Source: Thauera sp. K11
GTDB taxonomy: Bacteria > Pseudomonadota > Gammaproteobacteria > Burkholderiales > Rhodocyclaceae
Assembly (NCBI RefSeq): GCF_002354895.1
Contig: NZ_CP023439.1
Coordinates: 4,216,001 to 4,280,000, forward strand
Direction: 5' to 3'
Length of the DNA: 64,000 nt
Made by a program: the position numbers and the translations under genes. This document shows, piece by piece, positions 4,745 through 41,025 of this stretch. Under the pieces are notes generated by a model, which saw only the letters and a list, made by a program, of their open reading frames with translations, did not search any database and had not been told where the DNA came from. Positions within the stretch are counted from its first letter, which is position 1. Each line of letters begins with the position of its first letter.

Positions 4745-4861
4745 GGCGGGCGTCCTGGGAATGAGAGCAAGGTCCCTAGTCGAACGCCGAAGGCATGTCC
4801 GCTGCGACAAGGAATGCGCACCGCGCACACCCCGCTTTCGCCAGCGCCTCAAGGAAGAAGA

Positions 4862-4886: not shown

Positions 4887-5474
4887 TCAGGCGACCGCAG
4901 CCGTGGCCGCCGAGGCTTGAACGGCGCGGCGGGCATGGGCCTGCCAGAATGGATCGACCAGCCGGCCGGCGAGCACGCGGGCACGCAGGCGCAGGCGCTC
5001 GGCCGTGCTGTGGTTGTCCCAGCCAGCTTCGTAGGAAGCCTCGCCGCGCAGGTCATCAACCTGCTTCGCGACGTCGGCGGCTTCCGCATCTGAGGCGGTG
5101 GGTTCGCACCAGCGGATGCGGCTGCCGCACTGCACCTCGCTGGAGACAACCAGCCGATCGAGCGAATCGCGGATCAGGACCAGCTCCGGCCTAAAGTCCA
5201 GCGCCTCGATCTCCGATCTCAGATCGAACTCGTCTTTTGACAGTTCGTCCGCTGCGAGGGCCAGGGCCTCCTCGATCAGGCCGTGTTGGCCCAGCTCAAG
5301 GATGTGAGGTGTCCACCAGGTCCCGAAAACGGGATCATCCTCGGGGTACTCGATGTAGCCTTGGCAGGTGATCGTGAACTGGCGCCAGAACACATCCTCG
5401 CGGATGAAGGTTCCGGCGCGGTAAGGCGTGGCCACGAAGGTCACACCATCAACAACATGGATCTTGGGTTGCAT
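4887..5474 (-). CDS. Hypothetical ICE cassette protein
   Basis: A 195-residue soluble acidic protein with no signal peptide or membrane segment. It is rich in Trp and Glu and has an Ala-rich tail. I do not recognise a family. The composition and style resemble the small accessory proteins encoded at 22-33 kb rather than the transfer proteins around it. The ATG at 5474 has GGAG seven nt upstream. It is flanked by its own structured leader (with the repeated three-hairpin element) and its own terminator, so it looks like a self-contained cassette dropped between the DsbA-like and TrbC-like genes of the conjugation operon. Confidence 0.7.
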   Translation of the reverse strand: MQPKIHVVDGVTFVATPYRAGTFIREDVFWRQFTITCQGYIEYPEDDPVFGTWWTPHILELGQHGLIEEALALAADELSKDEFDLRSEIEALDFRPELVLIRDSLDRLVVSSEVQCGSRIRWCEPTASDAEAADVAKQVDDLRGEASYEAGWDNHSTAERLRLRARVLAGRLVDPFWQAHARRAVQASAATAAVA

Positions 5475-5602
5475 GGCAGTCTCCAAAGAAGGTGCGGAAG
5501 CGCCATGCCGCCCCTGCGGGCGTGGGCGACCCGCGTGGGATAAACAACAAGCGAAGGAAGAACAGGCATCCGCCACCGCAGCGCGGCGGCTGTTCGCGTC
5601 GA

Positions 5603-5681
5603 GGGATGCGAAGCGAACGGGGTCGATCAGCGCGGCCGGGGGCCGCGGCGTAGCCTTGAAGATCGGGGCTACCTGGGCATG
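5603..5681 (-). promoter_or_regulatory. Three-hairpin leader element, copy A
   Basis: Plus-strand H0 is GCGGCC/GGCCGC (5632-5646) and H1 is GTAGCC/GGCTAC (5650-5672) around the conserved loop TTGAAGATC. Then comes the invariant CTGGGCATG (5673-5681). The third hairpin is not clear in this copy. The element is about 130-200 nt upstream of the start at 5474. Its conserved box overlaps the stop codon of the dsbA-like gene, supplying that protein's last residues (DMPR). Confidence 0.6.
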
Positions 5682-6424
5682 TCGCCGAGGGACTCGGCAG
5701 GCATTTCCTTCGATGCGGTCTCGGTGGTGCCGCCGGCCGCCAGCAGGTCGATGGCCGACAGCAGCGCATCGCCTTCCACCGGGCCATGCAGCAACAGCGT
5801 CTTTCCGGAATGGCGGTCCCGCAGGCGCAGCGTGGGCGTGACCTTGATGCCCTCCTGCGCGGCGATCGCCGACTGCGCGCGGATCAGCGCATCGGGACGG
5901 TCGCTGTCGAGGCATTGCTGGGCGGCGGGCGTGATGCCGGGATAGCCCAGGCCCTCGGGCAGGCCCTGGCCGTCGCCGCGGGTATGCGCGTAGACCCACT
6001 CCACGGCGTGCCAGAAAGCGGCCGGGCCGCCGGCCTCGCCGACACACTCGACCAGGCGCGCATTGGCAGTCGCCGCAGGCTCATGCGTGGTCAGCGGCAG
6101 GTGCTGCCACTGCCAGTTCACCTCGGGGTGAGCATCGATCCACTGTTTGAGCACCGCGAAGTAGGCGCGGCAGAACGGACATTCGAGGTCGGCGTACTCC
6201 ACCACCGTGAAGCGCGCATCGTCGCGCCCGTAGCGCCACGGCGGGCCGGTGGTGGTGGCGGATGCCGGCGCGGGCGCCGGTTTGAAGTCGGCCGACGTGG
6301 AAACGTCTTCAGCGATCGGCGCCTGTGGCTGCATGCCTAGCCAGACCGCTGCGATCAGCGCGACGACGAGCAGCACGGCGACCAGTGCGACCGGGCGGGA
6401 TGGAATGAAGCGAGCGATCCGCAT
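5669..6424 (-). CDS. DsbA-family thiol:disulfide oxidoreductase
   Basis: A 251-residue protein anchored by one N-terminal transmembrane helix (about 11-30), followed by a Pro/Ala-rich linker and a DsbA/DsbG-like thioredoxin domain. The active site is CPFC (Cys82 and Cys85) after EYADLE, and a cis-proline loop, KVTPTLRL, lies near residue 200. It probably forms or shuffles disulfides in cysteine-rich periplasmic transfer proteins such as the TraU-like and PFL_4711-like proteins encoded downstream. It follows the TraC ATPase gene by 12 nt. Its 3' end runs into leader element copy A, so the last residues may be a replacement of the ancestral C terminus. Confidence 0.9.
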   Translation of the reverse strand: MRIARFIPSRPVALVAVLLVVALIAAVWLGMQPQAPIAEDVSTSADFKPAPAPASATTTGPPWRYGRDDARFTVVEYADLECPFCRAYFAVLKQWIDAHPEVNWQWQHLPLTTHEPAATANARLVECVGEAGGPAAFWHAVEWVYAHTRGDGQGLPEGLGYPGITPAAQQCLDSDRPDALIRAQSAIAAQEGIKVTPTLRLRDRHSGKTLLLHGPVEGDALLSAIDLLAAGGTTETASKEMPAESLGDMPR

Positions 6425-14321: not shown

Positions 14322-14434
14322 CGAGCCGTTCTCCGAGGGATGCGGATGGCTTGATGCTCAAACGGCCGGTCTTCCGGTGCCGCAATCAATCGGAACCGGC
14401 CCGCCACCGCTTTCCGCGACGGCGGCCGATGCGG

Positions 14435-20619: not shown

Positions 20620-22901
20620 TCAGGCCGCGACGAGTTGCCGGGCCAGTGCCACCTCGACGGAATCACCGTCCTGGTTCAGCACATCCAGTCCCGACTCGGG
20701 CACGTCTCCCGACGTGCTCTGCGAGACCATGATCTTTCGCGCCATCAGCCCCAGGCAGGTCATCTGCGAGGAAGCCGCATAGCCGAGGTAGATCACGCGA
20801 ACCGGCAGCTTCTGGCCGATGCGCCATGAGCGCCGGGCCGCCTGCTGCAGGCTGTAGACGTTGTAGCCCGACTGCATGAACACGATCGTCGGAAACTCCA
20901 ACAGATCGAGACCCGTCTTGACCAGCTCCGGGTTCGTGACGAGCACGTCGATGCCACGGTCCAACTGCTCGGCGATCCAGTCTTCGCGACGGCTGGCGTC
21001 TACGCTCGCGCGCAACACCGCCACCTTGAAGCCCTCCTGCTCCAGCAGCACCTTCAAACGCGACGTGGTGTCGCGCGTTCCGGTGTAGACCGAGTAGACC
21101 AGCGTCTTGCGACCCGCAGCCTTCTCCTGCTTGCAGATCTCGATCAGCTCGCGCTCCTTGGGCATCACCTCCAGCTCGTTGAACTGAGCCGGGACGAAGG
21201 CCAAGGTCTGGCGCGTGCGAGGGTGCACCACCGTCTCCGACCGGAAGCAGCAATCCGGCCAGGCCAGCAGCACGTTGAGGACCACGCCGAGCAGCGTCGT
21301 GTCGCGCTTGGCCAGCGCCTGTTTCAGCGCCGAGGTCAGACGAAACGACAGATCGCGATAGGCCGCGGCTTGCGCCGTGTCCATCGCCACCTCGCGGAAC
21401 TCCTCGTCGTAGGACGGCAGCACGTTGCCGCCAATGTCCTTGAGCTTGAGGAATACCGTGAACGGCAGGACGCAACGCAGCACGCCCTTCGGGCCGAAGC
21501 CCGGCGCCTTGACCGTGCGCACCGAAACCTTGGTGCCCTTGGCCGTCTTGTGCGCCGTGCCCGTGCTCTCGGAATAGATGTCCTTGAGGATGCCGTGATC
21601 GCGCATGAACGCCATCGCGGCCGAGGTCATGCTGCCGCTCTTGGTCGGGCGGTAGCCGTCTTCGATCATTCGCCCCGGCAGGGCTCGGAACAGCAGGTGG
21701 AACAGGTCGTCGCCGTAGCCGCCCATCAGCGTGCCGGTGAGCAGCAGCGTCTTGCGTGCCTTGGCCGCCAAAACCCCCATCGCTTGGCCCTGTGCGGAGC
21801 CGCCGTTCTTGTACTCGTGCGCCTCGTCGGCGATGAGCAAATCGAACGTGCCTTGCGGCAGGTAGCGTTTGACGAATTCGGACGGCTGGTAGCCGCCTTC
21901 GCCGAAGCCGAACTCCATGTTCGCCATCGCCCGCTCCATGCGGTGCGCCTGACGATCCGAGAAGACCAGCTCGCCCTTGGCATCCATGAGGTTGATGAAC
22001 TCGTGGATGTTGTCGCCCAGCATCGAGGCCAGGAAGCCGTCGCCGAACTTCTTCATCAGCTTCTGCGCGGTGACTTCCCCGATGGTCGGGATGCGCTGCA
22101 AGGCTTTGAAGACGGCCGTGGACTGGTCGCTGGCGGACAGGCTCCGCGGTCGCATCAGCGTCCACAGTGGTGCGGCGCAATGGCTGCACCGGCGGCGGTA
22201 GTCCTCGGCTTCGAGTTCGACCGGGTTGATCGGCTCGCCGTCGAGGTTGGTGATGACCTGGCCGCAGTCCGGGCATGCGCCCACTTCGCCGTGCCGCGTG
22301 CGCCGCACGTTGAAGACGGGCTTCCAGTGGAACCCCATGCGCATGCGCACGCGCCCGAGCACGTAGAACTCCTGGCCGCGTACCGGCACGCCCAACTGCT
22401 CGCGCAGCTTGATGAGCTTGACCAGCGTGTCCGGGCCATTGAGCACCCAGACCTTGGCACCGGCCACCGTCTCCTGGATTTCCCGGCGCCACTTGTAGAC
22501 CAGGTGGGGCGGTGAGAGGACCAGCGTGCGACGGTAGCCTTCGGCGTGCAGCACGGCCGCCGTGGCAATGCCAACGGTGGTCTTGCCGCAGCCCATTTCG
22601 CCATTGACGATCGCGGCGCGTTCGCCGCGGTCGGCCAGCAGCTCGGTGACGGCATGCACCACCTCGGCTTGCGCGCCGAACAGCTTGCGCTTGAGACTGG
22701 CCAGCACGAGCTGGCGATGCGGCCGGGCCTGGCCGGCGTAGACGGGGGGTTGGCGCGGTTGAGCGAGTCCAGCAGCTCGTCGCCGAATTCGGCAACGAAA
22801 TCCTGGAGGCTCATCGCCAGGGGAGAAGCAGCCGCTTCGAGCAGATCGCCCTGGACGGGCGTGCCATCGGCGGCGGAAACAACGTCGGTATCGAGGGACA
22901 T
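20620..22901 (-). CDS. SNF2-like DEAD/DEAH helicase of ICE (frameshifted as given)
   Basis: A roughly 760-residue superfamily 2 ATPase. N-terminal residues (MSLDTD...FGDELLDSLNRANPP) are in one frame; the rest, starting VYAGQARPHRQL, is in the next. The shift lies in the run of six C on the minus strand (22744-22749), where a seventh C restores an unbroken protein. Walker A is GEMGCGKTT, followed by a zinc-ribbon-like CPDCG/CSHC pair, a DEAHEYKNG box, and a C-terminal helicase domain ending in RRSWRIGQ (motif VI type). A probable role is DNA or nucleoprotein remodelling during ICE replication or transfer. Start 22901 has TTTGGAGC upstream. It may be a true loss of function or a sequencing error. 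Confidence 0.8.
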
Positions 22902-22921
22902 GGTGATGCTCCAAATGAAAT

Positions 22922-22959
22922 GGGGCATGCACCTCCCCTGCGGGGCGATTGCATGCCCC
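22922..22959 (-). promoter_or_regulatory. Leader hairpin before the helicase gene
   Basis: A perfect 10-bp stem (GGGGCATGCA/TGCATGCCCC) encloses a smaller CCCC-TGC-GGGG hairpin. It lies just upstream of the ribosome binding site of the gene starting at 22901. It is one of a set of leaders with similar architecture but unrelated sequence. Confidence 0.55.
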
Positions 22960-23003
22960 GTGGTGGGAAGAGAAGAACGGCGCGTGGCCGCGGTAGATGA
23001 AGA

Positions 23004-23309
23004 TCAGTATTCGCTGGGCAACAGCAGCGTGGTCACGCTGCGATCCCATTCGGTGATGATCCAAAGCTTCAGGTCGGGCGCGACCTGGTAGGACGAGAAC
23101 AGCCGATCCTCGCCGGAGCGCAACGCGGCATCGTTCTGCCGCCGGTCGCTGTCGTCGAGGTCGCCCCAATCGCCGCTGAGATGGCGGCAGAGGTACGGGG
23201 TCGGGTTGAGCCGGCCCTGCCGGACCAGCGCGTCAATGCCGCAGGTCATGACAAGGTGACCGGGGGCAAAGCGTGCTTGCAACGCCACGTTGAGAACTGC
23301 GAATGCCAT
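23004..23309 (-). CDS. Hypothetical ICE accessory protein
   Basis: A 101-residue soluble protein. It has an LVMTCGIDALVRQG motif, a Tyr-Leu-Cys-Arg-His sequence, and an acidic WGDLDDSDRRQND segment typical of small plasmid- and ICE-borne proteins of unknown function found beside the helicase and DUF6094-like genes. A strong AAGGAG precedes the ATG at 23309. It is probably a single-gene transcription unit with its own leader hairpin. No biochemical role can be inferred. Confidence 0.75.
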   Translation of the reverse strand: MAFAVLNVALQARFAPGHLVMTCGIDALVRQGRLNPTPYLCRHLSGDWGDLDDSDRRQNDAALRSGEDRLFSSYQVAPDLKLWIITEWDRSVTTLLLPSEY

Positions 23310-23333
23310 GGTGTTTCTCCTTCGGATGAAAGA

Positions 23334-23367
23334 GGGGCCACGGCACCCGGCGGGGTGACATGGCCCC
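23334..23367 (-). promoter_or_regulatory. Leader hairpin before the 101-aa gene
   Basis: The outer stem is GGGGCCA/TGGCCCC and the inner stem CACCC-GGC-GGGGTG, nested as in the helicase leader but with a different sequence. It ends 25 nt before the start codon at 23309, just above the AAGGAG site. Confidence 0.55.
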
Positions 23368-23421
23368 GTTGGGTGGATGAGTTGGTGGATGAAGCGACGG
23401 CGAACCGTCAGGGAACAGCGA

Positions 23422-24537
23422 TCAGCGGATGGTCAGCACCTCGCCACACGTCGACGAGCCCGGCGTCATGTCCCAGGCGCGGATGACCGGCACGAACTTG
23501 TCGGTCAGGATGCGCGTCTCGGCCACGGTGCCGTCGTCGCGCTCGGTGTACTCCGTCTGCAAGGTCTTCTCCTTGTGCGTGTCGCCCTTGACGACGAGCA
23601 CGCGGCCCGTCTTAGACTTCACCACGCCGGAAATCGCACCCGCGGCGAGCGCTAAGGCGAGATGCCAATGCGATAACCCTCGCGCCGGGGACCGCAGCGA
23701 CTGCTGCGCGGCGCCAAGGTGCGTGTCGAGCGTCGGCCAGAGTCCTTGCAGCCGGCCGACTTCATCGGCGAACTGCTCGGGCTCCATCGTCACGCGGTAG
23801 AAGTGCTCCGGCTCGGCCGTGGCAGGCACCGTGTACGGCAGGAACGGCCATTCAACCGGCAGTTCCTCCGCTTCGGCGTCGCCTTGCCCGATCTGCAACA
23901 GCAGCGCGCGCGTGGCCTTGCACGAATCCGATACCTGGTCACGCTGGCGAACCTTGCGACCGAAGATCACGATTTGCCTGAACTGCGCGTCCACCGCGCG
24001 GTAGATGCGCAGCTCGGCGAAGTGCCGGGTCAGCCATCCGACCAGCTCGGCATCGAGCACATAGTGCGGCACGATGTAGATCAGCACGCCGCCGTATTGC
24101 AGCAGCGGCAGCGCCTTCTGATAGAACAGCTTTTCCAGCCTGGCGCGGCCCTGGCTCTGGTAGCCGACGTTGCCGTTGGCATCCTTGGACAGGTCGCCAT
24201 ACGGCGGGTTGAGCCACAGCAGGCCGAAACTCTGCCGGCTGATCAGCGTGTCCATCAGGTCGCCGTGGATGCAGCGATCGACCAACTGCCGGGCGTGGCG
24301 TGCACGCTCGGCCTCGTACTCGACGGCGAAGGCCTGGACCCGCTCGCGCCCGAGGGCGTGCGCGGCTTCGGCGATCGCCACGCCTTCGCCGGCGCAGGGA
24401 TCGAGGATGCACAGCGGTCCGGCCGAGGCCTCGGCGGGCGCCAGTGCGGCGAGTGCTCTTTCGAGCGTGGGTTCATCCGTGGGGAAGTACCCGTTCTTGA
24501 TGAAGTTGCGGGCGAGCCGCGGGAACATGAGGGCCAT
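23422..24537 (-). CDS. DUF6094-type class I methyltransferase-like protein
   Basis: A 371-residue protein with an SAM-binding fold. Motif I-like CILDPCAGEGVAIAEAA is near residues 44-60 and the catalytic-type NPPYGD (motif IV of N6-adenine or N4-cytosine methyltransferases) near 118. The C-terminal half is less typical. Related ICE and plasmid proteins are annotated as DUF6094. It may modify DNA to protect the element from host restriction, but no partner restriction gene is visible. ATG 24537 has AGGAG upstream; the frame open to 24666 has no better start. Confidence 0.8.
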   Translation of the reverse strand: MALMFPRLARNFIKNGYFPTDEPTLERALAALAPAEASAGPLCILDPCAGEGVAIAEAAHALGRERVQAFAVEYEAERARHARQLVDRCIHGDLMDTLISRQSFGLLWLNPPYGDLSKDANGNVGYQSQGRARLEKLFYQKALPLLQYGGVLIYIVPHYVLDAELVGWLTRHFAELRIYRAVDAQFRQIVIFGRKVRQRDQVSDSCKATRALLLQIGQGDAEAEELPVEWPFLPYTVPATAEPEHFYRVTMEPEQFADEVGRLQGLWPTLDTHLGAAQQSLRSPARGLSHWHLALALAAGAISGVVKSKTGRVLVVKGDTHKEKTLQTEYTERDDGTVAETRILTDKFVPVIRAWDMTPGSSTCGEVLTIR

Positions 24538-24563
24538 GGGAATCTCCTGAAGATGAAGGGATG

Positions 24564-24587
24564 CGGACATGCGCGCGTGCATGTCCG
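24564..24587 (-). promoter_or_regulatory. Leader hairpin before the methyltransferase gene
   Basis: A perfect 9-bp stem (CGGACATGC/GCATGTCCG) with a 6-nt loop, ending 26 nt before the start codon at 24537 and just above its AGGAG. Confidence 0.55.
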
Positions 24588-24598
24588 GTGAAGGAACC

Positions 24599-25255
24599 TC
24601 AAGCCACCGCTTCGAGCGGGCGGGCCGAGGGCATGCGGCTGACGGGCGTGTCGGCGACCAGCGCACCGCTGCGGATCAGGCCGCCCAGCACCTGGGTCAG
24701 CGTCGGCACGTCGATGGCGAGCCGATGGCCTTCCAGGGGACCGAGGGCGAACGGCAGGCGCGTCAGCATTGACTTCGCCTGCAGCAGCTCCAGCACGCCA
24801 TCGCGCCAGGGATCGAGAAGCGGCAGCGGGCAGGTGTCCCGCACCAGCCTCCACATCCGGTCGAGCCGGTGCGCGGAGCCGCGGGGCAGGAGCGCCAGCG
24901 CGCTGGCGTTGGCCTTGTCGGGCTTGACGCAGCGCCGATCGAACAGCCAGATGTTGGTCAGCGAGCCGAACAGCGTGCGCCGGTAGGCGCGTGCGCTGCG
25001 CTTTTCCAGGTTCTCGACGTTGCCGACGAAGACCGGGATGCTCGCGCCCTGCTCGGTGATGACGTGGAACTGGTCCAGTCCCTGCTCGTCCCGGCCCAGG
25101 GTGAGGCGGGCCAGGAATCCCTGGACGGCGGTGTCGCGCGACCAGAGAGAGATGAAGACCAGGTTGCCGTTCTCGTCACCGACGACGCCATCGGCCATCA
25201 GGTCGGGGCATTCGTCGATGCGATAGAGCGTCTTGGGGGAAGAAGGTGCAGGCAT
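24599..25255 (-). CDS. Hypothetical ICE accessory protein
   Basis: A 218-residue soluble protein with no recognisable domain. The N-terminal half is beta-rich (LYRIDECPDLMADGVVGDENGNLVFISLW) and the C-terminal half helical. It carries a conserved-looking WLFDRRCVKPDKANASALALLPRG segment around 100. Proteins of this kind recur beside the DUF6094 and DUF932 genes in this ICE family. The ATG at 25255 follows a leader with an inverted repeat (25297-25311) and, further up, three-hairpin element copy B. Confidence 0.7.
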   Translation of the reverse strand: MPAPSSPKTLYRIDECPDLMADGVVGDENGNLVFISLWSRDTAVQGFLARLTLGRDEQGLDQFHVITEQGASIPVFVGNVENLEKRSARAYRRTLFGSLTNIWLFDRRCVKPDKANASALALLPRGSAHRLDRMWRLVRDTCPLPLLDPWRDGVLELLQAKSMLTRLPFALGPLEGHRLAIDVPTLTQVLGGLIRSGALVADTPVSRMPSARPLEAVA

Positions 25256-25360
25256 GGTGATGTCCTCGAAGTGAGCGGAGACAGCACCACCCGCTAGGGC
25301 AGTCACTGCCCCAGGGGGATGAAAGAAGACGCGGTGAACGTCGTTGTGAAGAATCAGACC

Positions 25361-25426
25361 GTGCGTCGCAACGCACCGTAGCCTTGAAGGTCTGGGCTAC
25401 CTGGGCATGTTGTCGGCTACGCCGAC
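25361..25426 (-). promoter_or_regulatory. Three-hairpin leader element, copy B
   Basis: H0 is GTGCGT-CGCA-ACGCAC (25361-25376; TGCG loop on the minus strand). H1 is GTAGCC/GGCTAC (25378-25400) with loop TTGAAGGTC. The conserved CTGGGCATG is at 25401-25409, and H2 is GTCGGC/GCCGAC (25412-25426). It lies about 105-170 nt upstream of the start at 25255. This is the clearest copy of the family. Confidence 0.65.
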
Positions 25427-25540
25427 GGACACGAGTCATAGCCTGCGCCAAGCTGCGTACACCGCGTGAGCGAAAAACCGACCCGGCGCCCAACCCTGTT
25501 TGCGCTGGCGCATCGCCCGCGGCGCCGGAAGGACGGCCGC

Positions 25541-25572
25541 AAAAGAAAACCGCCCCGGGGACACCGAGGCGG
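25541..25572 (-). terminator. Orphan terminator-like hairpin
   Basis: On the minus strand CCGCC...GGCGG is followed by TTTTCTTTTG. It lies between the DUF932 terminator (25714) and the next gene's leader, with no convincing gene ending in front of it. It may terminate a small RNA, or be a second terminator for the DUF932 transcript. The 25256-25756 gap otherwise holds only leader element B and the DUF932 terminator. Confidence 0.45.
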
Positions 25573-25713
25573 CAAAGATGACTGCTTGGCTCAGGGAGGA
25601 AAAGCCAGGGAGGTATGCAGTCGAATCTCGATTTTCGAGGCAGCCGCGAATTGCCGCATTAGGGTTACACCGAACCAAATGGAACACGGTGCGCTGGCAG
25701 CACAGCACCAGCC

Positions 25714-25750
25714 AAAAAAAAGCGGACCATGCCGTGAGGCACGATCCGCT
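25714..25750 (-). terminator. Strong rho-independent terminator after the DUF932 gene
   Basis: On the minus strand AGCGGATCGTGCC pairs with GGCATGGTCCGCT across a 4-nt loop and is followed by eight T. It starts 7 nt past the stop codon at 25757. Confidence 0.9.
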
Positions 25751-25756
25751 TGTGGG

Positions 25757-26584
25757 TCAGGCTTTGAGCTGGCGTAGGCCGTCCGCGAGCAGCCACAGCG
25801 CCCGGTTGAGCCGGACGTTCTGGTCGATGCCCTGGACGGCTCGCGTGCGCTGCCGGCGCCCGTTGGCAGCACGGCCGCTCAGGCCGCCCTTGACCAGGTT
25901 CTCCTGGACTCTGTTGAAGACAGTCCACAGGTCGGCGCGGTTGTCGTCGTAACGACGGGGCCGCAGGATCTGGGTCTCCGTGATGGGCAAGGCCTTGCCC
26001 GAATCGTCGTACTTCAAGGTCAGCGCCGACCTGGCGAAGACCTCGGCCTCGCCGTTGTCCAGCGTGATGCCCTGCATGGCGTCGCGCGAGTCCTGCACGC
26101 GCTCGAAGCCGTGCAGCACCTCGTAGGCGCCTTCGATCACGTGATCGGTGACGTTGCCCTTGTGGGGCACCCGCACGTCGGCGAAGGTGTCGCCGCACAC
26201 CAGGCCGTTGTGGCAGACGAATCTGAACAGGCCCGCGAGCATCTGGTAGCTGCTGCTGCCGTCGTGCGAGTTGAGCAGGATGATCTCGTTCGCCTCGGCG
26301 CCGTTGATCTGGCTGGCGTGGCGAAGGCGCAGCATGTGCTTGGTGTAGTCGCGGCGGTCCTCGTGCCGCACGCGGGTCTGGCACACCATGAACGGCTGGA
26401 AGCCTTCCTTGCGCAGTTCAGTCAGCACAGCCGCCGTGGGGATGTAGCTGTACCGTTCGGAGCGGCTTTCGTGCGGGGTGTCCGCGAAGATGGACGGGGC
26501 CACGGTGCGAATCTGATCATCCGACAGCGGATAGTCGGCGCGCAGCACCGGGGAGCGAAAAGCGAAGCGGGAAGCGAGTTGCAT
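25757..26584 (-). CDS. DUF932 (YfjQ-like) protein
   Basis: A 275-residue soluble protein of the DUF932 family, common on plasmids and ICEs. Family features are IFADTPHESRSERYSYIPTA near the N terminus, a central LNSHDGSSSYQMLAGLFRFVCHNGLV, and a basic C-terminal region. The YfjQ/YkfF-type proteins are of unknown function and resemble phage LGT-type proteins. It is a single-gene unit with a strong terminator. The start at 26584 has AAGGAG upstream. Confidence 0.85.
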   Translation of the reverse strand: MQLASRFAFRSPVLRADYPLSDDQIRTVAPSIFADTPHESRSERYSYIPTAAVLTELRKEGFQPFMVCQTRVRHEDRRDYTKHMLRLRHASQINGAEANEIILLNSHDGSSSYQMLAGLFRFVCHNGLVCGDTFADVRVPHKGNVTDHVIEGAYEVLHGFERVQDSRDAMQGITLDNGEAEVFARSALTLKYDDSGKALPITETQILRPRRYDDNRADLWTVFNRVQENLVKGGLSGRAANGRRQRTRAVQGIDQNVRLNRALWLLADGLRQLKA

Positions 26585-26654
26585 GATGATCTCCTTGCGG
26601 AATGAAGCAATCGGTATCCAGCGGCCGAGGCCGGATGCGCGGATTGCATGGGAC

Positions 26655-26680
26655 GAAGAAAAGCCCTGCTGAACAGGGCC
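26655..26680 (-). terminator. Rho-independent terminator after the 89-aa gene
   Basis: On the minus strand GCCCTG-TTCAG-CAGGGC is followed by TTTTCTTCG, starting about 40 nt past the stop at 26720. It lies in the leader region of the DUF932 gene. Confidence 0.75.
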
Positions 26681-26719
26681 TGATGGAAGGGATGAAGAAG
26701 CGCGTCGCTGGGAAGCGGC

Positions 26720-26989
26720 CTATGGGTTCTGAACCGGCTCCCAGCCTCGGCTATGCGGGTTGAAGCAAAGCGCTTCCTGGCCTTTAAGGATCGGCGTGAA
26801 GCCTTCGAGGAAGATGTAGCGCAAGTACAGGGCGCGGTAGGTCAGTGCCTGCCACGCCTGTTCTTCGCTCAGGCCGTTGGCGATGAAGTGCTCGCGCAGT
26901 TCGTCGTCGTCGGAAACCTCGTTGTTGGCCAACTGGTCTTCGACGAAGCGAAGCAGCTCGGGCGGCAAGGACGACATGAGGGTGTCCAT
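26720..26989 (-). CDS. Small acidic ICE protein (hypothetical)
   Basis: An 89-residue acidic protein, mostly helical (LPPELLRFVEDQLANNEVSDDDELREHF), with a C-terminal NPHSRGWEPVQNP. I recognise no domain. It lies 7 nt downstream of the next gene and is probably co-transcribed with it. The ATG at 26989 starts the conserved-looking part; the frame is open to 27052 but the extra residues look like shadow sequence. Confidence 0.7.
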   Translation of the reverse strand: MDTLMSSLPPELLRFVEDQLANNEVSDDDELREHFIANGLSEEQAWQALTYRALYLRYIFLEGFTPILKGQEALCFNPHSRGWEPVQNP

Positions 26990-26996
26990 GTGCGCC

Positions 26997-27389
26997 TCAG
27001 TCGGTGGCTGCATCGCCGGCCGCTTTGCGCGTCGGCTGCTGGTGGAAGGCATGCACCCTTGCGCGCCAGGTGGCGCAGCGCTGCGGCGCCATGTCGAGAT
27101 AGCGCAGCGGGCACGAGTAGTAGTACGGGTGCTCGGCCTCGACCAGGAACTTGTAGCCCCATTCGCGGCCCTCGCTTTCCAGCAGATGGCAGCCGATCAA
27201 GGTGGCCGACTCGCCGGGTGCGAGACCCAGGACACCGGCCTGCTTGGCGGTGACGCGCACCACCGTCCACAGCACGTTGCCGACCAGCGTGTGGTCGATG
27301 ACCTCACTGCACGACCGCTCGGTTTCCTCGGTTGCGGTCAGCTCGCGGATCAACTGATCGCGCGTCAATCGAACGAATGTCCAGCCCAT
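26997..27389 (-). CDS. Hypothetical ICE accessory protein
   Basis: A 130-residue soluble protein beginning MGWTFVRLTRDQLIREL, with LLESEGREWGYKFLVEAEHPYYYSCPLRYL near 75-105 and a basic tail. It is a recurrent small protein of PFGI-1/ICEclc accessory regions; no function is known. ATG 27389 is preceded by AGGAGT and, further up, by a 10-bp hairpin. It forms a two-gene unit with the 89-residue protein. Confidence 0.75.
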   Translation of the reverse strand: MGWTFVRLTRDQLIRELTATEETERSCSEVIDHTLVGNVLWTVVRVTAKQAGVLGLAPGESATLIGCHLLESEGREWGYKFLVEAEHPYYYSCPLRYLDMAPQRCATWRARVHAFHQQPTRKAAGDAATD

Positions 27390-27422
27390 GGAATGACTCC
27401 TGTGAGAAAGGGCCGGAGTCCT

Positions 27423-27448
27423 CCCGCCGGGGAAGGAGCCCCGGCGGG
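27423..27448 (-). promoter_or_regulatory. Leader hairpin before the 130-aa gene
   Basis: A perfect 10-bp stem (CCCGCCGGGG/CCCCGGCGGG) with a short loop, ending 33 nt before the start codon at 27389. Confidence 0.55.
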
Positions 27449-27490
27449 TGGTGGAAAGCCGCAGGCATGCGGCGTGAAATGGCGATGGGA

Positions 27491-28120
27491 TCACACCCTG
27501 GCGAGGTGCCAGTCCTGGGACAGCGGAGCGAACTCGTAGCCCAGGTCGCCGAGGCGGTCGCGCTGCTGGCGCAGCACGCGCCGATCCACGGTGGCATCGA
27601 GCTTGACGACATCGCCCAGCGGCCAGAGTGTGTCGAACAGCGCCGCGTCGCCGTCGTCGTCCGCATGGGCCGTAGCCTCGGCAGACGCAGCAGCCGGCTC
27701 GCTGCCGAACGGCGTGGTATCGACCAGCGGGTCGCGCGAGCTGCGCGCCTTCTTCCGGCCGGCCGCCTTGGGGGCGGTCGTCGGCGTCGGCGTGGCGGTC
27801 TGCGCTTCCTCGTCGATCGGATCGACTTCCTGCGGACTCAGCCGGCGGGCGTCGTCACGGCTCAGGGCGTCGATGTTGGACAAAGTCATCCCACCCAGGA
27901 GGGCGCGGATCTCGATGACCATGCGGCCGTTGGCGCTGTACGTGGACGGGCGAATCTCCGCGATGGCGAAATCGCCCTCGTACTTGCCTTCGGCGTACTG
28001 GTCGAGTTCGGCGTTCTTCACGACGAACTCGCCGATGGAGGTCGCAAGGCGCCCGACGTTGAAGTCGCCGTTGCGGCCGTGGATGGTCTTGATGGCCAAT
28101 TGGCCGGGAATGGTGATCAT
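27491..28120 (-). CDS. DUF3275 family ICE protein
   Basis: A 209-residue soluble protein. The N-terminal half (ITIPGQLAIKTIHGRNGDFNVGRLATSIGEF) is a beta-rich domain of the DUF3275 family. A Lys/Arg-containing low-complexity linker (about 105-150) and a C-terminal helical stretch with RRVLRQQRDRLGDLGYEFAPLSQDWHLARV follow. The family is confined largely to ICEs and plasmids; function unknown. Its neighbour upstream is the DUF3577 gene, with which it is usually found. Confidence 0.85.
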   Translation of the reverse strand: MITIPGQLAIKTIHGRNGDFNVGRLATSIGEFVVKNAELDQYAEGKYEGDFAIAEIRPSTYSANGRMVIEIRALLGGMTLSNIDALSRDDARRLSPQEVDPIDEEAQTATPTPTTAPKAAGRKKARSSRDPLVDTTPFGSEPAAASAEATAHADDDGDAALFDTLWPLGDVVKLDATVDRRVLRQQRDRLGDLGYEFAPLSQDWHLARV

Positions 28121-28202
28121 GAAGAACTCCTGCGGACGAAGCTGCGGTCACGCACACGGCCGTCATGGTGACGGTCGCATGCGCACGCGAGTGGGAGAAG
28201 AC

Positions 28203-28235
28203 AAGGCCCTGGGCTCAATTCAGAGTCAGGGCCTT
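28203..28235 (-). terminator. Hairpin after the DUF3577 gene
   Basis: A 9-bp stem (AAGGCCCTG/CAGGGCCTT) begins 6 nt after the stop at 28241. The T-run is weak, so it may be an attenuating terminator or an mRNA-stabilising hairpin. Confidence 0.55.
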
Positions 28236-28240
28236 GCGGA

Positions 28241-28804
28241 TCAGAACGACTCGGCAACTTCCAATGCGGGCGCATCGGCAGTGGCTTCATCGGCAGCTTC
28301 AGCGGCGGGCCTGGCGGGCTCGGACGCAGCGGCTTGCGGCTCGGCGGACGTCGCGGGGACATCCGTGGCGCGCACGTCGCGTTCGTCGCGGTCGTCGGCG
28401 TCGGTCGGCTTGGGCTCGGCCTTGTAGACGAGCTTGCCATCGACCTTGATCCAACTGACGAACAGCAGGCGGGCCTTGAGGCTAACGCCCTGCTCGCCGG
28501 CACGCTTGCCCTTGGAGTAGGTAAAGGTGTCGGTCCACAGGTCGCCCAGGCGGAAGCCGATCATCACCTTCTTCTCGGCATCAACCGCTTGGATGCAGCG
28601 GCGCACCAGGTGCTGCGCTTCGGAGCCCGAGACGCGCGTGTCGAAACGCACGTAGGCCACATCATCGCTGGGGCCGTTGAGCGCCGCGATGTCGCAGGCC
28701 AGGAACGCATCGCCTTTCTTGGGCTTCACTTCGCGGATGCGATTGAGATACCCGAGTCCGGTGATGTGCAGGTCGAAGAAGGACTTTTCGGTGGAAGTGG
28801 TCAT
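28241..28804 (-). CDS. DUF3577 (STY4534-type) ICE protein
   Basis: A 187-residue protein. The N-terminal domain (about 1-130) contains FFDLHITGLGYLNRIREVKPKKGDAFLACDIAALNG, reminiscent of single-strand-binding-like OB folds, and DTRVSGSEAQHLVRRC. The tail is acidic and Ala/Pro-rich. It matches the DUF3577/STY4534 family of ICE and pathogenicity-island replication-associated proteins. The ATG at 28804 follows AGGAG. The leader has a CACACC/GGTGTG stem (28836-28864) and three-hairpin element copy C further upstream. Confidence 0.85.
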   Translation of the reverse strand: MTTSTEKSFFDLHITGLGYLNRIREVKPKKGDAFLACDIAALNGPSDDVAYVRFDTRVSGSEAQHLVRRCIQAVDAEKKVMIGFRLGDLWTDTFTYSKGKRAGEQGVSLKARLLFVSWIKVDGKLVYKAEPKPTDADDRDERDVRATDVPATSAEPQAAASEPARPAAEAADEATADAPALEVAESF

Positions 28805-28964
28805 GGTGAATCTCCTGAGAACAAAGAGGCGGAGACACACCCGACCCAAGGCGGGGAAGGTGTGGAACCCCCGCGTGGGTTGAAGGAACAGCTTGGGTGG
28901 CATCACCATCGGGAGAACCGATGGCCGTTCGCGCTGGGATGCCGGAGCGAACTGGGTGATCAGC

Positions 28965-29031
28965 GCGGTCGGAACCGCATCGCAGTCTTGAAGATCGAGA
29001 CTGCCTGGGCATGCTGCTGACGGGTGTCAGC
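28965..29031 (-). promoter_or_regulatory. Three-hairpin leader element, copy C
   Basis: H0 is GCGGT-CGGA-ACCGC (28965-28978; TCCG loop on the minus strand). H1 is GCAGTC/GACTGC (28982-29004), compensatory relative to copies A and B, with loop TTGAAGATC. CTGGGCATG is at 29005-29013 and H2, GCTGAC/GTCAGC, at 29016-29031. It lies 160-230 nt upstream of the DUF3577 start. The 28805-29217 gap also holds the DUF3085 terminator; nothing else is evident there. Confidence 0.65.
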
Positions 29032-29174
29032 GGAACATGGTGGTAAGCGTGGCGCCTGGCACGCGCCCGCGCGAGCGGCAATCGGTATCCGTGACTCTCC
29101 GCATTGCTGGCGCTCTTCAGTCCATTGCGCCAGTGGGGAGCTTGAGCCGACATGCGGCCGGGGCCGCTGAACCA

Positions 29175-29203
29175 GAAAAAAGAGAAGCCCCCGTGAAGGG
29201 GCT
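29175..29203 (-). terminator. Rho-independent terminator after the DUF3085 gene
   Basis: On the minus strand AGCCCC...GGGGCT is followed by TCTCTTTTTTC, starting 15 nt past the stop at 29218. Confidence 0.85.
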
Positions 29204-29217
29204 GGGAAGCAGGCCAG

Positions 29218-29583
29218 TCAGTGGCCGGCCGGCGCAGCGGGCATGGGCTGCATCGACAGGTGCGTGGCCGTGGCCGACACTTCGAGGTCGTCCTCGCTGT
29301 GCAGGATGCGGGTAAAGACCCGTTCCTGCAGGTCGAAGAACTCGCCGAAGTCGTCGCCGCCGAATTCGGCGCGCGTCAGTTCCCACCAGTCGTCGAACGC
29401 ATCGACATGGGGGTTGCAGCCCACGGCATAGGCGATCGTCTTGCGCCGTCCATCGGGCTGGCGCTCGCCACGCTCGGCCATGAAATACACGCCCTGGTCC
29501 TTGACCAGGATGACGCGGCACTGGTTGGCCGCTGCCTCGGCGAGCACGGGCCGAAGCGCGGCGCCTTTGAATCGAACAGTCAT
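29218..29583 (-). CDS. DUF3085 family ICE protein
   Basis: A 121-residue soluble protein with the DUF3085 pattern: MTVRFKGAALRPVLAEA at the N terminus, VILVKDQGVYFMAERGERQPDG, and YAVGCNPHVDAFDDWWELTRAEFGGDDFGE in the middle. Function unknown. ATG 29583 is preferred over the in-frame TTG at 29598, as GGAG sits properly before the ATG. It is a single-gene unit between two terminators. Confidence 0.85.
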   Translation of the reverse strand: MTVRFKGAALRPVLAEAAANQCRVILVKDQGVYFMAERGERQPDGRRKTIAYAVGCNPHVDAFDDWWELTRAEFGGDDFGEFFDLQERVFTRILHSEDDLEVSATATHLSMQPMPAAPAGH

Positions 29584-29610
29584 GGAAGTGATCTCCAATG
29601 GAGGTACGAG

Positions 29611-29642
29611 AAAATGGCTTCCCGCCGTGAGGACGGGAAGCC
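29611..29642 (-). terminator. Terminator/leader hairpin between the 265-aa and DUF3085 genes
   Basis: On the minus strand GGCTTCCCG pairs with CGGGAAGCC and is followed by ATTTTCTC. It is 18 nt past the stop at 29661 and 28 nt before the DUF3085 start, so it can serve both as terminator and as the SD-proximal leader hairpin. Confidence 0.75.
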
Positions 29643-29660
29643 GCTTGGGGATGCAGGGAC

Positions 29661-30458
29661 TCAGTGCTGGACGGGCTTGCGACCGGACAAGCGCTGCACG
29701 CGGATGAGGCGCCAGCTCCCGTCGTCGATCAGCCGCTCCAGCACCTGGCCCAAGGTGTCGAAGAACACTTCATCGACCCGCTCGACCAGCTCGCCTTCGC
29801 GATGCAGCTCCACCGCGTAGGTGTCGAGGCCGCGTTCGTAGAGCACGGTGACGCGCCCCTGGAACTTCGCCGAAGCGACGGTGAGGCCGATGGCCGGCGG
29901 CGTGGCGATGATGTTGCTGGGGCTCGGATCGACCACCGTGAAGTCCCGCGCGCCGGCATCCACCAGCAGGTGCGTGATGCGGCGGAATCCATCGGGCGCG
30001 GGCAACTGCTCCAGTTGGTGGATCAGCTCCTGCAGCTCGGGGCACTGCGGCTCGGGGATCGGCAGCTTGGCCGGCGCGGAACCCAGGGTGAGCCGCTTCA
30101 CCGTGTGCGGCTGGCCGTCGGCGGTGAACTCAGTGCTCTCCTCGGGCGTATCCGCGCGCAAGCCGTCGAAGCGGCGCCGCGCATACGGTTCGACCTGCAC
30201 CTTGGCGCCTTCGTCGGGCACGTCGGTGACGAGGGCCTTGTCGAGCACCGCGAACTCGGCCCGCCCCGTCTTGACGACGATGGCCTCGTCGGTGGTGGCG
30301 ATGACCTTGCCCTCGAAGGGCTTGGGATCAACGTGGAAGCCCAGCGTCGAAACCTTGGGCTGGCCGTCGAAGATGTTGAACTTGAAGCTGCGGACGTTGG
30401 CAGGCACGTGGCCGCGAACCAGCGTCGGCATCTGTGCGCGGATGGCTTGGGTATCCAT
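29661..30458 (-). CDS. Hypothetical ICE accessory protein
   Basis: A 265-residue soluble protein. The N-terminal half is beta-rich (VRSFKFNIFDGQPKVSTLGFHVDPKPFEGKVIATTDEAIVVKTG), followed by a linker around 105-130 and a C-terminal domain with ELQELIHQLEQLPAPDGFRRITHLLVDAG. This protein type is conserved in ICEclc-like accessory regions; I do not know its function. ATG 30458 has AAGGAG upstream, preceded by a 9-bp leader hairpin and then three-hairpin element copy D. Confidence 0.75.
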   Translation of the reverse strand: MDTQAIRAQMPTLVRGHVPANVRSFKFNIFDGQPKVSTLGFHVDPKPFEGKVIATTDEAIVVKTGRAEFAVLDKALVTDVPDEGAKVQVEPYARRRFDGLRADTPEESTEFTADGQPHTVKRLTLGSAPAKLPIPEPQCPELQELIHQLEQLPAPDGFRRITHLLVDAGARDFTVVDPSPSNIIATPPAIGLTVASAKFQGRVTVLYERGLDTYAVELHREGELVERVDEVFFDTLGQVLERLIDDGSWRLIRVQRLSGRKPVQH

Positions 30459-30477
30459 GGAAGACTCCTTGTGGCAA

Positions 30478-30516
30478 CCAAGGGACTTCCGCCCGCAAGG
30501 GAGGTGTGTCCCTTGG
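30478..30516 (-). promoter_or_regulatory. Leader hairpin before the 265-aa gene
   Basis: A perfect 9-bp stem (CCAAGGGAC/GTCCCTTGG) encloses a smaller CCC-GCAA-GGG hairpin, 20 nt before the start at 30458. Confidence 0.55.
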
Positions 30517-30565
30517 GGGTGAGGTGGATGGACGCGACATGCGCCCGGAGAAGGAAAAGCAACCA

Positions 30566-30632
30566 GCACGGCGAACCGTGCCGCAGCCTCGAAGGTCTCG
30601 ACTGCCTGGGCATGCTTGCCGGCAACGCCAGC
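30566..30632 (-). promoter_or_regulatory. Three-hairpin leader element, copy D
   Basis: H0 is GCACGG-CGAA-CCGTGC (30566-30581; TTCG loop on the minus strand). H1 is 30583-30605: GCAGTC/GGCTGC on the minus strand with one U.G wobble. CTGGGCATG is at 30606-30614. H2, 30618-30632, is GCTGGC/GCCGGC on the minus strand, again with a U.G wobble. Both wobbles would be C.A mismatches on the plus strand. It lies 108-175 nt upstream of the start at 30458. Confidence 0.65.
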
Positions 30633-30711
30633 GAACATGCGAGCAGCATGCGTCAGGCGTGGGCCAGCGTCGCGGGGGAATCGGCACTGCGCGGCCACCG
30701 GCTTCGTCCAG

Positions 30712-30740
30712 AAAGAGAACGAGCCCCGCGTGGGGGCTCG
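30712..30740 (-). terminator. Rho-independent terminator after the 238-aa gene
   Basis: On the minus strand GAGCCCC-CAC-GCGGGGCTC is followed by GTTCTCTTTCTGG, starting about 12 nt past the stop at 30751. Confidence 0.7.
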
Positions 30741-30750
30741 AAAGGTGGTG

Positions 30751-31467
30751 TCAGTCGTCGTAGATCGGCAGGCCGTCCAGCACCTGCGCATCGGCATCGA
30801 AGATCAGCATGCGCACGTCGGCGAGCGCGGCCAGGTGCAGCACGTGCACGAGGGATTCCGGCATGCCCTTCTTGCGATGCTCCTGCATCAGCCGCTTGGC
30901 CGTGATGCCTTCGACCGCGCGCAGGTTCTCGTCGGTCCAGGGCGTGGCGATCAGCTTCAACCCGATGGCCGGGCTGTACGGGATGCGGAAGGCGACGAAC
31001 AGGAACAGCGTCGGCGTGGCGATGTCCGCAAGCTCGGCGAGGAAGCGATGCGCGTCGGCGTCGAGGTGCGCGCTGCTGATTTCCCAGCACCGGCTGTAGT
31101 AGCCGGTTTCATAGCGCAGGCGCCGCACGACTTCCCGCGCTGCTTCTTCGGAGTAAGTGTCGCCCACGTGCAGCGGCTTGCCGTCTTCCTGGGCCATCAC
31201 GGCATAGACCACGTTGCGGGCGAGCCCGTGGCTGCGGCATTGCGCCTGCAACTCGTCGGGGACCGCCTGGTCCTCGGTGATCAGCACGAAGTCGTCCGAG
31301 AAGATGCAGGCCCGCCGTTCGACCTGGCTGTCCGGTAGATTCGACTGCGAAGGATGCAGCGGCAGGTAGGTCAGCGGGCAGTCGTCGTCGTAGGAGATGG
31401 CGAGCAGCCGCTGGACGGACAGGCCGTCGTAGCCGCGGACAAAGGGATTGTTGTTCGAGTAGGACAT
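30751..31467 (-). CDS. Hypothetical ICE accessory protein
   Basis: A 238-residue soluble protein. The N terminus (MSYSNNNPFVRGYDGLSVQRLLAISYDDDCPLTYLPL) is followed by a DDFVLITEDQAVPDEL strand region and a C-terminal alpha/beta domain ending DVRMLIFDADAQVLDGLPIYDD. It recurs in related ICEs (the C-terminal part resembles DUF5983-type proteins); function unknown. Its leader can fold into two competing hairpins, one of which includes part of the ribosome binding site. Confidence 0.75.
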   Translation of the reverse strand: MSYSNNNPFVRGYDGLSVQRLLAISYDDDCPLTYLPLHPSQSNLPDSQVERRACIFSDDFVLITEDQAVPDELQAQCRSHGLARNVVYAVMAQEDGKPLHVGDTYSEEAAREVVRRLRYETGYYSRCWEISSAHLDADAHRFLAELADIATPTLFLFVAFRIPYSPAIGLKLIATPWTDENLRAVEGITAKRLMQEHRKKGMPESLVHVLHLAALADVRMLIFDADAQVLDGLPIYDD

Positions 31468-31476
31468 GGGATTTCT

Positions 31477-31528
31477 CCAGCAGGGGATGGCCGAGGCAAT
31501 CCCCTGCTGGGGATTGAACCCCAGCGGG
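31477..31528 (-). promoter_or_regulatory. Leader with two mutually exclusive hairpins
   Basis: Stem I is a perfect 12-bp pairing of 31477-31488 with 31499-31510 (CCAGCAGGGGAT/ATCCCCTGCTGG) and takes in part of the GGAG ribosome binding site. Stem II pairs 31503-31512 with 31519-31528 (CCTGCTGGGG/CCCCAGCGGG) and shares 31503-31510 with stem I. Only one can form at a time, so translation of the gene starting at 31467 could be switched. Confidence 0.5.
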
Positions 31529-31547
31529 TGGATGAAGTGGCAGCCGG

Positions 31548-32012
31548 TCAGCCGGCAGCGGTAGAGGACGGGTCGCCCAGCGCCTTCAACAGGTCGAGCA
31601 GGCCGCCATTCGCAAGCTGGTACAGGCGGTTGTAGTCGTCGCCGGTCGGCGCCTGCTCCAGGCGATCCAGGCGCGCATCCAGGTTGAGGATGCTCTGGTG
31701 CACGTTGCGGGCGATGCTCAGCGCGGAAGGTTTTCCGGCCGGCTTAGGTGCATCGAGCACCGAAAGGACTTCAGCGGGCGATGGGTAGCGGCAGTCGGGT
31801 CCGTACTCGACCGGGAACACCTCGCGCCCGGTCAATCCGGTATTCGGGGTTCCGCTGCTGACACGCAGCACATACTCGTCGGGCACATCATTGCCGGCGT
31901 AGTCGAACACCACGATGCGCGGCTTGCGCACGTCGGCCGGCCAGCCTTCAAGGATGACCGCATCGATGTCGTCGTCGGTCACGAGCAGACCGATGGAAAA
32001 GTCAGGGGACAT
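31548..32012 (-). CDS. Hypothetical ICE accessory protein
   Basis: A 154-residue acidic soluble protein starting MSPDFSIGLLVTDDDIDAVILEGWPADV, with a conserved-looking VVFDYAGNDVPDEYVLRV strand pair. A C-terminal coiled-coil-prone region follows (SIARNVHQSILNLDARLDRLEQ). No known domain. ATG 32012 has AAGGAG upstream and a 10-bp hairpin before it. It probably forms its own unit. Confidence 0.72.
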   Translation of the reverse strand: MSPDFSIGLLVTDDDIDAVILEGWPADVRKPRIVVFDYAGNDVPDEYVLRVSSGTPNTGLTGREVFPVEYGPDCRYPSPAEVLSVLDAPKPAGKPSALSIARNVHQSILNLDARLDRLEQAPTGDDYNRLYQLANGGLLDLLKALGDPSSTAAG

Positions 32013-32034
32013 GAATCACTCCTTTCAAGAAAAG

Positions 32035-32070
32035 GAGGGACATGGCCCCATGCAGGGACGCATGTCCCTC
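32035..32070 (-). promoter_or_regulatory. Leader hairpin before the 154-aa gene
   Basis: A perfect 10-bp stem (GAGGGACATG/CATGTCCCTC) encloses a small inner hairpin, 22 nt before the start at 32012. Confidence 0.55.
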
Positions 32071-32785: not shown

Positions 32786-32942
32786 GGGGTTCTCCTGGTG
32801 GTTGAAGACCGGGAGCACCACGCCCTGACGGGAGCGGATACCTCCCGAAGGGTTGAACATGAACGGCATCGGCGTTGTGAAACGCCTGTCCGCGGTGGTC
32901 GATGCGAAGCGGACTGGTGGGTCGCACGAGAGGATTCCCGCG

Positions 32943-32987
32943 GCAGCCGAAAGACCCAGGCTGCTGGCATGTGCTGATCAGGTCAGC
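32943..32987 (-). promoter_or_regulatory. Three-hairpin leader element, copy E (diverged)
   Basis: H1 is GCAGCC/GGCTGC (32943-32964), compensatory relative to the other copies. It is followed by a shortened conserved box, TGGCATG (32965-32971), and H2, GCTGA/TCAGC (32973-32987). H0 is not clear. It lies 158-202 nt upstream of the start at 32785 and ends about 100 nt before the arsR operator. The 32786-33110 gap contains only this leader and the ars promoter. Confidence 0.5.
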
Positions 32988-33082
32988 AACACGTGCCGCA
33001 AAGGATCACGCTGGGGCGCGTTCTGCGTCACGGGGGAATCGGTTCCCGCCTCGTCCCTGATTGCTGCTGGGTGCTGCCCAAT

Positions 33083-40926: not shown

Positions 40927-41025
40927 GGTGACGACTCGCGGTAAAGGAACGAGCCGCCAGCATCGGCATCGCCCGGAAGGGCGTCAGTCAACAAACCGCA
41001 GCGGGTGCGTCCCCGGTTGTCGTCC

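Follow-up and report, generated by a model that had tools for sequence, protein, structure and literature searches.

radC RNA copies in a Thauera sp. K11 region related to ICEclc and their possible role in transcription antitermination

The radC RNA is typically found upstream of DNA-handling genes in Proteobacteria, radC among them. The present analysis concerns its copies in a 64-kb stretch of the Thauera sp. K11 genome (contig NZ_CP023439.1, positions 4,216,001 to 4,280,000; hereafter the window, with coordinates counted from its first base), which, judged from its genes, is part of an integrative and conjugative element (ICE) of the ICEclc family. Rfam holds the family as RF01754, of cis-regulatory type, and the motif was catalogued in 2010 (Weinberg et al., 2010, PMC2864571); the literature found on it is computational only, most subscription journals lying outside the search. 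In the available text of the same catalogue, STAXI is alike in consisting of repeated pseudoknots near DNA-handling and antirestriction genes, but the radC RNA differs in having two different pseudoknots per element. No STAXI match was detected in the window at gathering score. Two further RNAs offer a comparison, the put RNA of phage HK022 and the EAR RNA of the Bacillus eps operon, both of which are processive antiterminators. The put RNA has been described as contacting the zinc finger of the polymerase (PMC4499122). The likeness is at the level of function only, in that a cis-acting RNA precedes terminators and is placed near the beginning of an operon or within it; the hosts are others, and for the radC RNA antitermination is what we infer. 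Sequence homology to either was not found, RF01754 alone reaching gathering score in the window, in a search for which the presence of put in Rfam was not checked. In the BisDC regulon of ICEclc, a 27-bp motif has been reported in eight of nine bimodal promoters, with no RNA element mentioned in the available text (Sulser et al., 2022, PMC9286271). The window genes are orthologous to those of this regulon, and a matrix built here recovers several of its promoters. The reading favoured below, to which a probability of about 0.4 is given, is that the radC RNA would let polymerase pass the terminators of its own transcription unit in the manner of put and EAR.

The five copies in the window belong to the known radC RNA family and form no new RNA class. 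A search with Infernal (cmscan, Rfam 15) returned five matches, all to RF01754, all on the minus strand and over the whole model, at 78.6 to 118 bits against a gathering cut-off of 40 (E values from 6.6e-22 to 6.2e-13), and no other Rfam family reached its gathering score in the window. Copy A lies at 5566..5715 (118 bits), copy B at 25289..25443 (86.7 bits), copy C at 28900..29049 (115.3 bits), copy D at 30489..30649 (94.2 bits) and copy E at 32866..33005 (78.6 bits), and the identity and strand of all five are near certain. A sixth copy occurs elsewhere in the same genome (C1:212147-212293). The family was detected in 15 of 29 Thauera genomes, the present one counted, and, under stricter filters, in 133 of 398 genomes from the family of a Pseudomonas genome (G030).

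A preliminary description of the window, made from its letters, had proposed five copies of a three-hairpin leader element; all five are where it placed them, and at about 150 nt the radC RNA exceeds the intervals then given. The relatives it suggested, motifs named after DUF3577, DUF3085 and ssNA-helicase genes, gave no match. Its shared box, CTGGGCATG, is exact in copies A to D and shorter in copy E, and a fifth exact match stands at 55703, outside every copy; taken alone, the box was rejected as evidence for being too common (five found against 1.27 expected, with at least five in 3 of 100 shuffles). UNCG-type loops were recognised by eye in three of the five copies and not in A or E. The copies do precede start codons, at about 106-161 nt from the low coordinates of that description, which had claimed 100-230 nt (for this count the start of the 83-aa gene was set at ATG 32785, the automatic gene call having given 32869). 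Its interpretation is thus partly supported, the structured RNA having held and the suggested relatives and the restriction to three hairpins having not, while the pseudoknots, the promoter-like motif, the link to ICEclc and the association with terminators are added here.

The structure of the element was followed in homologues with a covariance model of the 5' domain, based on an alignment (A2) of 34 radC RNA hits from the same genome and genus. This model gave 225 matches at E <=0.01 in the window and in 80 loci around DUF3577 relatives, with at least one match in all 80 loci. A copy stands 236-264 nt before the DUF3577 start in 77 of the 80; of the three exceptions, one locus begins within the gene (L103), one has none there (L051) and one has only a truncated match (L113:3377-3419), which was left out, so that 219 of the 220 locus hits were used. 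Hairpins H0, H1 and H2 together with a first pseudoknot are paired in 96.7% and 96.3% of cells in two alignments, of which the first has 60 distinct rows and 158 double-change cells and the second 94 and 282; in slid controls the pairing of the whole structure falls to 23-50%. The three hairpins are strongly supported, the nested helices with compensatory changes that characterise RF01754 are present in the window copies and their homologues, and the compensatory stem changes of the preliminary description prove to be real. Its claim that the RNA is transcribed with the downstream genes also agrees with the homologues, as all 220 locus matches lie on the coding strand of the DUF3577 gene and G-U pairs outnumber A-C pairs on the sense strand by 271 to 55 among 142 distinct cores, in an alignment that, being fitted to a sense-strand model, is biased the same way. 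This orientation bears on another reading of the site, as a promoter active on the single-stranded DNA transferred in conjugation. Such promoters, of the Frpo kind, fold on the template strand. A site before DNA-handling genes of a conjugative element would suit one, but the wobble pairs lie on the sense strand, even if the alignment leans that way, so that the idea is largely refuted and its probability close to negligible.

Besides the hairpins, two pseudoknots have been recognised, neither of which appears in the structure line that Infernal prints for RF01754. In the first, four nucleotides in the loop of H1 pair with the four that come directly after H2, the main states being GAUC/GAUC, GGUC/GACC and GACC with GGUC or GGUU; 94.2% and 93.3% of these cells are paired in the two alignments, which were fitted to the nested structure, the pseudoknot pairs being absent from the model. 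Two of the four pairs show double changes, in 15 and 14 cells of alignment A4 and in 29 and 26 of A5. Copies A, C and E share the second pseudoknot with their relatives. Its stem S1 occurs as GUUCGC/GCGAAC, GUCCGC/GCGGAC and, once, in ICEclc, GCUCGC/GCGAGC, and is 99.5% paired, with double changes in 31 of 444 cells, among 74 sequences selected by the 5' strand of S1 itself. For stem S2, for which one of the 74 sequences could not be placed, 423 of 438 cells are paired where shuffles give a mean of 269, a gain that comes partly from two type-specific registers, since within types the values are 226 versus 225 and 197 versus 195 (best of 500 shuffles). The 3' domains differ among radC RNA types, and the conserved unpaired stretches are a CCCAG junction and a UUCAA-like loop. 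The radC RNA has been placed among families with missing covarying pairs (Rivas, 2020, in its available text), which indicates that extra pairing in this RNA had been noticed earlier.

Upstream of the RNA lies a promoter-like motif. The weight matrix that describes it, trained on the radC RNA upstream sequences, spans 42 nt, and its conserved boxes are AA..GG and one resembling TGCCGATT. Of 149 distinct upstream sequences, 146 carry the motif 61, 62 or 63 nt ahead of the RNA, the remaining three being those of copy A and two of locus L106, and before copies B to E it ends about 29-31 nt from the RNA. These four sites, all on the minus strand, lie at 25465..25506 (B, 24.8 bits), 29070..29111 (C, 37.6 bits), 30669..30710 (D, 30.4 bits) and 33027..33068 (E, 22.3 bits). 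When the matrix was trained on one paralogue group at its fixed place and the best hit in another was sought within 59-65 nt, with about 5% expected per sequence, training on C recovered 26 of 28 D, 17 of 19 B and 38 of 39 E sequences and training on D recovered 57 of 59 C sequences; the weakest of the twelve pairings, B to D, gave 14 of 28. No site above 10 bits was found in five simple shuffles of one strand, and a sigma-70 scan gave no promoter in 20500-33100. We infer from these sequence features that the motif is the promoter of the RNA-led units.

The motif also occurs on its own on the minus strand, before the PFL_4669/DUF3158/SSB unit (40983..41024, 16.0 bits; the PinR position of ICEclc), before type IV secretion system (T4SS) genes (14378..14419, 20.1 bits; P67231 of ICEclc) and before the T4SS gene block 4744-26 (4803..4844, 22.4 bits), with further weak sites at 20551 and, on the other strand, 3487 (10.9 bits). 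These sites are relevant to the proposal that the RNA-like repeats are conserved as DNA, as part of a BisDC-binding module. The constant spacing of 61-63 nt would fit such a module, as would the statement in the available text of PMC9286271 that P58432, the ICEclc place of the copy-A type RNA, carries the common promoter motif. The proposal is nonetheless highly improbable, considering that PinR and P67231 carry the motif without the RNA, that copy A keeps the RNA inside an operon without the motif, that the matrix finds no motif next to the RNA of P58432 and that the RNA pairs covary.

The relation to ICEclc was established through a genome (G190) with three pairs of radC RNA copies of equal scores about 342.7 kb apart; strain B13 has been reported to hold two identical ICEclc copies (PMC9286271). 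Gene ends of this genome equal ICEclc open reading frame (ORF) numbers exactly at 95213, 94175 and 91884, agree within one base at 88400, 87986, 84835, 81655 and 75419, and follow at a constant offset of 15 for 68987, 68241, 67231, 66625, 66202, 63176, 62755, 59110 and 58432, and on this fit it is taken to be Pseudomonas knackmussii B13. By coordinate mapping, ICEclc radC RNAs fall at P88400, UR84835, P81655 and P58432 and, weakly, at UR89247, where a match of 27.6 bits (L115:9781) was counted as a copy and others of 13.5 and 10.4 bits were not. This degenerate fifth ICEclc copy (L115:9781-9862), mapped before ORF89247, retains the second pseudoknot. The matrix, trained without ICEclc, scores P88400 at 23.7, UR84835 at 22.1, P67231 at 20.0, PinR at 14.2, UR73676 at 14.0 and a site before topB at 11.5. 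According to PMC9286271, PinR, P88400, P81655 and P67231 are promoters that depend on BisDC, and the cells in which they are active are the same few per cent. Together with the orthology of the window genes to genes of the transfer-competence regulon, these matches suggest that the RNA-led units correspond largely to that regulon.

The matrix motif is at most a candidate for the published 27-bp motif, with whose text description it was compared. Three statements on the latter do not fit the matrix sites: that no further significant hit exists, that it occurs at P58432 and that 152 bp separate it from the PinR start. The start site given in the text of PMC2892462 lies about 71 nt downstream from where the PinR site of the matrix begins, and the 152 bp come from a supporting legend of PMC9286271. 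For ORF81655, primer extension is reported, with data not shown there, to have given a very weak product that places a 5' end about 250 bp ahead of the gene, and 5' rapid amplification of cDNA ends failed (PMC2892462). The RNA model starts 235 nt before the ORF81655 start codon, about 15 nt after that reported 5' end, so that on this single published end transcription does not begin downstream of the copy, the outcome that the preliminary description had taken to speak against a transcribed RNA.

Intrinsic-terminator-like hairpins occur inside the RNA-led units of the window, all on the minus strand, between the 265-aa gene and DUF3085 in unit D (29616..29642), before DUF932 in unit C (26661..26681) and after DUF6094 in unit B (23335..23366). 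Further such hairpins precede the motif in the gaps before the units of copies D (30720..30740), C (29186..29203, after DUF3085) and B (25720..25751, after DUF932). Across the loci, a terminator-like hairpin is present in 49 of 50 gaps preceding the 265-aa gene, in 49 of 49 preceding DUF3577 and in 15 of 21 preceding the 218-aa gene; the motif occurs in 49, 49 and 18 of these gaps and the RNA in 50, 49 and 18. Thirteen ICE regions were then compared (the window, ICEclc and 11 others selected for several copies on one contig), with gaps of 25-1000 nt between conserved genes classed by the last element passed, RNA or motif alone. Internal gaps held a terminator in 39 of 111 cases under relaxed and 25 of 111 under strict settings in RNA-led units, against 1 of 26 and 0 of 26 in motif-led units without RNA; gaps before the next motif held one in 31 of 31 and 28 of 31 cases after RNA-led units, against 0 of 11 under both settings after units without RNA. 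Fisher tests gave p values of 0.0013 and 0.004 for the former and 2e-10 and 9e-8 for the latter, on gaps that are not independent. Gaps before copy-A type RNA without motif had a terminator in 3 of 12 cases (relaxed) and 0 of 12 (strict), and five gaps, none with a terminator, were not classed. Set against shuffles, distinct gaps with terminators numbered 47 of 60 versus 3.5 for DUF3577-DUF3275, 16 of 30 versus 1.3 for the 265-aa gene and DUF3085, 9 of 9 versus 0.6 for the 89-aa gene and DUF932, and 8 of 42 versus 1.8 for DUF6094 and the 101-aa gene. Strong terminator-like hairpins follow ORF81655 (directly), ORF84835, DUF3085 and RadC in ICEclc, where an 8.5-kb transcript has been reported from before ORF81655 to ORF74436 (PMC2892462). 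This transcript crosses the hairpin after ORF81655, as would be predicted for a processive antiterminator, and the second half of the unit has been reported to be needed for transfer (PMC9286271).

Taking these observations together, the favoured mechanism would run as follows. The units of the ICE would be transcribed from the promoter-like motif before copies B to E. The nascent RNA folds into three hairpins, and a pseudoknot links the loop of H1 with the nucleotides that follow H2; copies A, C and E form the second pseudoknot as well. The folded RNA may then act in cis on the elongating polymerase, which would afterwards pass the intrinsic terminators between genes of the same RNA-led unit. 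An antiterminator RNA would be expected to open an operon or to lie within it, upstream of intrinsic terminators, and this arrangement is seen here with terminator-like hairpins, though not in every unit.

Several points weigh against this reading. The 13 ICEs are related by descent, for which reason the gap counts were collapsed to gap kinds, giving 10 of 19 RNA-led versus 1 of 7 without RNA for internal gaps and 6 of 6 versus 0 of 4 for next-motif gaps. T4SS genes are tightly packed and leave less room for terminators, and the terminators between unit genes may be leaky. No intergenic terminator is seen in the E unit of ICEclc, and internal gaps lack one in 10 of 11 cases between the 218-aa gene and DUF6094 and in 10 of 10 between the 83-aa and 130-aa genes. 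In ICEclc, a motif at 74372 could by itself account for transcription of the latter half of the ORF81655 unit, P81655 scores just 5.1 with the matrix, and the UR84835 and UR89247 fragments are reported as inactive promoters in isolation (PMC9286271). Concerning the structure, copies B and D form other hairpins in place of the second pseudoknot, so that a single function of the RNA, if any, must reside in the 5' domain, and the number of pair types does not exceed that of shuffles in two alignments, 223 of 500 being as high for alignment A4 of the hairpins with the first pseudoknot and 500 of 500 for S1.

Published expression data lend themselves to two further explanations. The highest read numbers of all were seen upstream of ORF81655, unmatched by reporter output, which led to a suggestion of post-transcriptional control, and coverage rises upstream of ORFs 84835, 89247 and 73676, where cloned fragments had no promoter activity (PMC9286271). 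The unmatched reads would suit a leader that regulates the first gene, at translation or by early termination, on sensing a ligand in the manner of a riboswitch or on binding an ICE protein such as InrR, as would the cis-regulatory type given by Rfam and the conserved CCCAG junction and UUCAA-like loop, which suggest specific recognition. Such a leader is unlikely, given that no conserved switch was noticed between the RNA and the start codon, where the 3' domains vary by type. Shine-Dalgarno sequences do lie in hairpins of the C, D and B leaders, with mean pairing of 0.84, 0.79 and 0.80, but this pairing is unspecific, the values being 0.58-0.93 (five at least 0.83) for 12 genes not directly led by the RNA against 0.81-0.84 for the three that are. 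Sequestration of the Shine-Dalgarno sequence as an expression platform was dropped as specific evidence, as genes without the RNA give similar values (15 ICE genes across the 80 DUF3577 loci, predicted folds). The same very high reads, and the coverage rises at ORF84835 and ORF89247, both of whose upstream regions carry a mapped radC RNA and for which the authors of PMC9286271 considered processing, could also reflect a 5' stability or processing element that would shield the leader and determine how much mRNA transfer-competent cells contain, the RNA being near the supposed transcription start. This is unlikely as well, since a simple protective stem needs neither covarying pseudoknots nor conserved loops and the association with terminators would be left unexplained.

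The genes by which the window was assigned to the ICEclc type include ParA, ParB/BisD-like, STY4528, PFL_4669, SSB, topoisomerase III, TraD and TraC genes, among others. On the minus strand, copy E leads a unit of 83-aa, 130-aa, 154-aa and DUF5983 genes, and copy D the 265-aa gene (29661..30458, with a KfrB-domain match under the Pfam cut-off) and DUF3085. Copy C leads the DUF3577/STY4534-family gene (28241..28804), followed by DUF3275, 130-aa, 89-aa and DUF932 genes, and copy B the 218-aa gene (24599..25255, without family match), followed by DUF6094, 101-aa and helicase genes. Copy A is intra-operonic and no classic leader; it lies inside the T4SS region and is followed by a 195-aa gene (4887..5474, minus strand), in a place held by a radC gene in loci L007 and L001. 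Placement before DNA-handling genes is borne out by family matches in the window and by the RadC-like gene next to copy-A type RNA in L007, L001 (by eye) and ICEclc, radC itself being missing in the window (4887-5566). In L001, which is a further ICE remnant in this genome, the RNA is kept together with RadC and a relative of the 195-aa gene.

The 5' hairpin of copy A overlaps the 3' end of a dsbA-like ORF (5669-6424). This first hairpin (5669-5715) lies in frame within the last dsbA-like codons, and the stop codon TAG falls between the CCCAGG box and hairpin H1, an arrangement that recurs in L007 and ICEclc (L117:358-446); being encoded there, the copy A RNA could be disturbed by translation of the upstream gene. 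Elsewhere in the window, arsenic-resistance-like genes occupy the plus strand between topoisomerase III and copy E (33111-36354; by eye, from translation starts and layout), and cargo with SulP-like transporter and cytochrome bd-like genes was noted at 54626-63905 from translation starts only.

It is doubtful that the radC RNA would prove to be a third kind of RNA that alone makes bacterial polymerase resistant to terminators, and that it would thereby give the ICEclc family a second key, with genes after a terminator expressed only from a transfer-competence promoter that prints the RNA. If the radC RNA is an antiterminator, this would help explain how one element may coordinate long sets of transfer genes in a few per cent of cells. 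Because reporters and mutants exist for ICEclc, a model ICE, the placement of the radC RNA there opens this orphan RNA to experiment.

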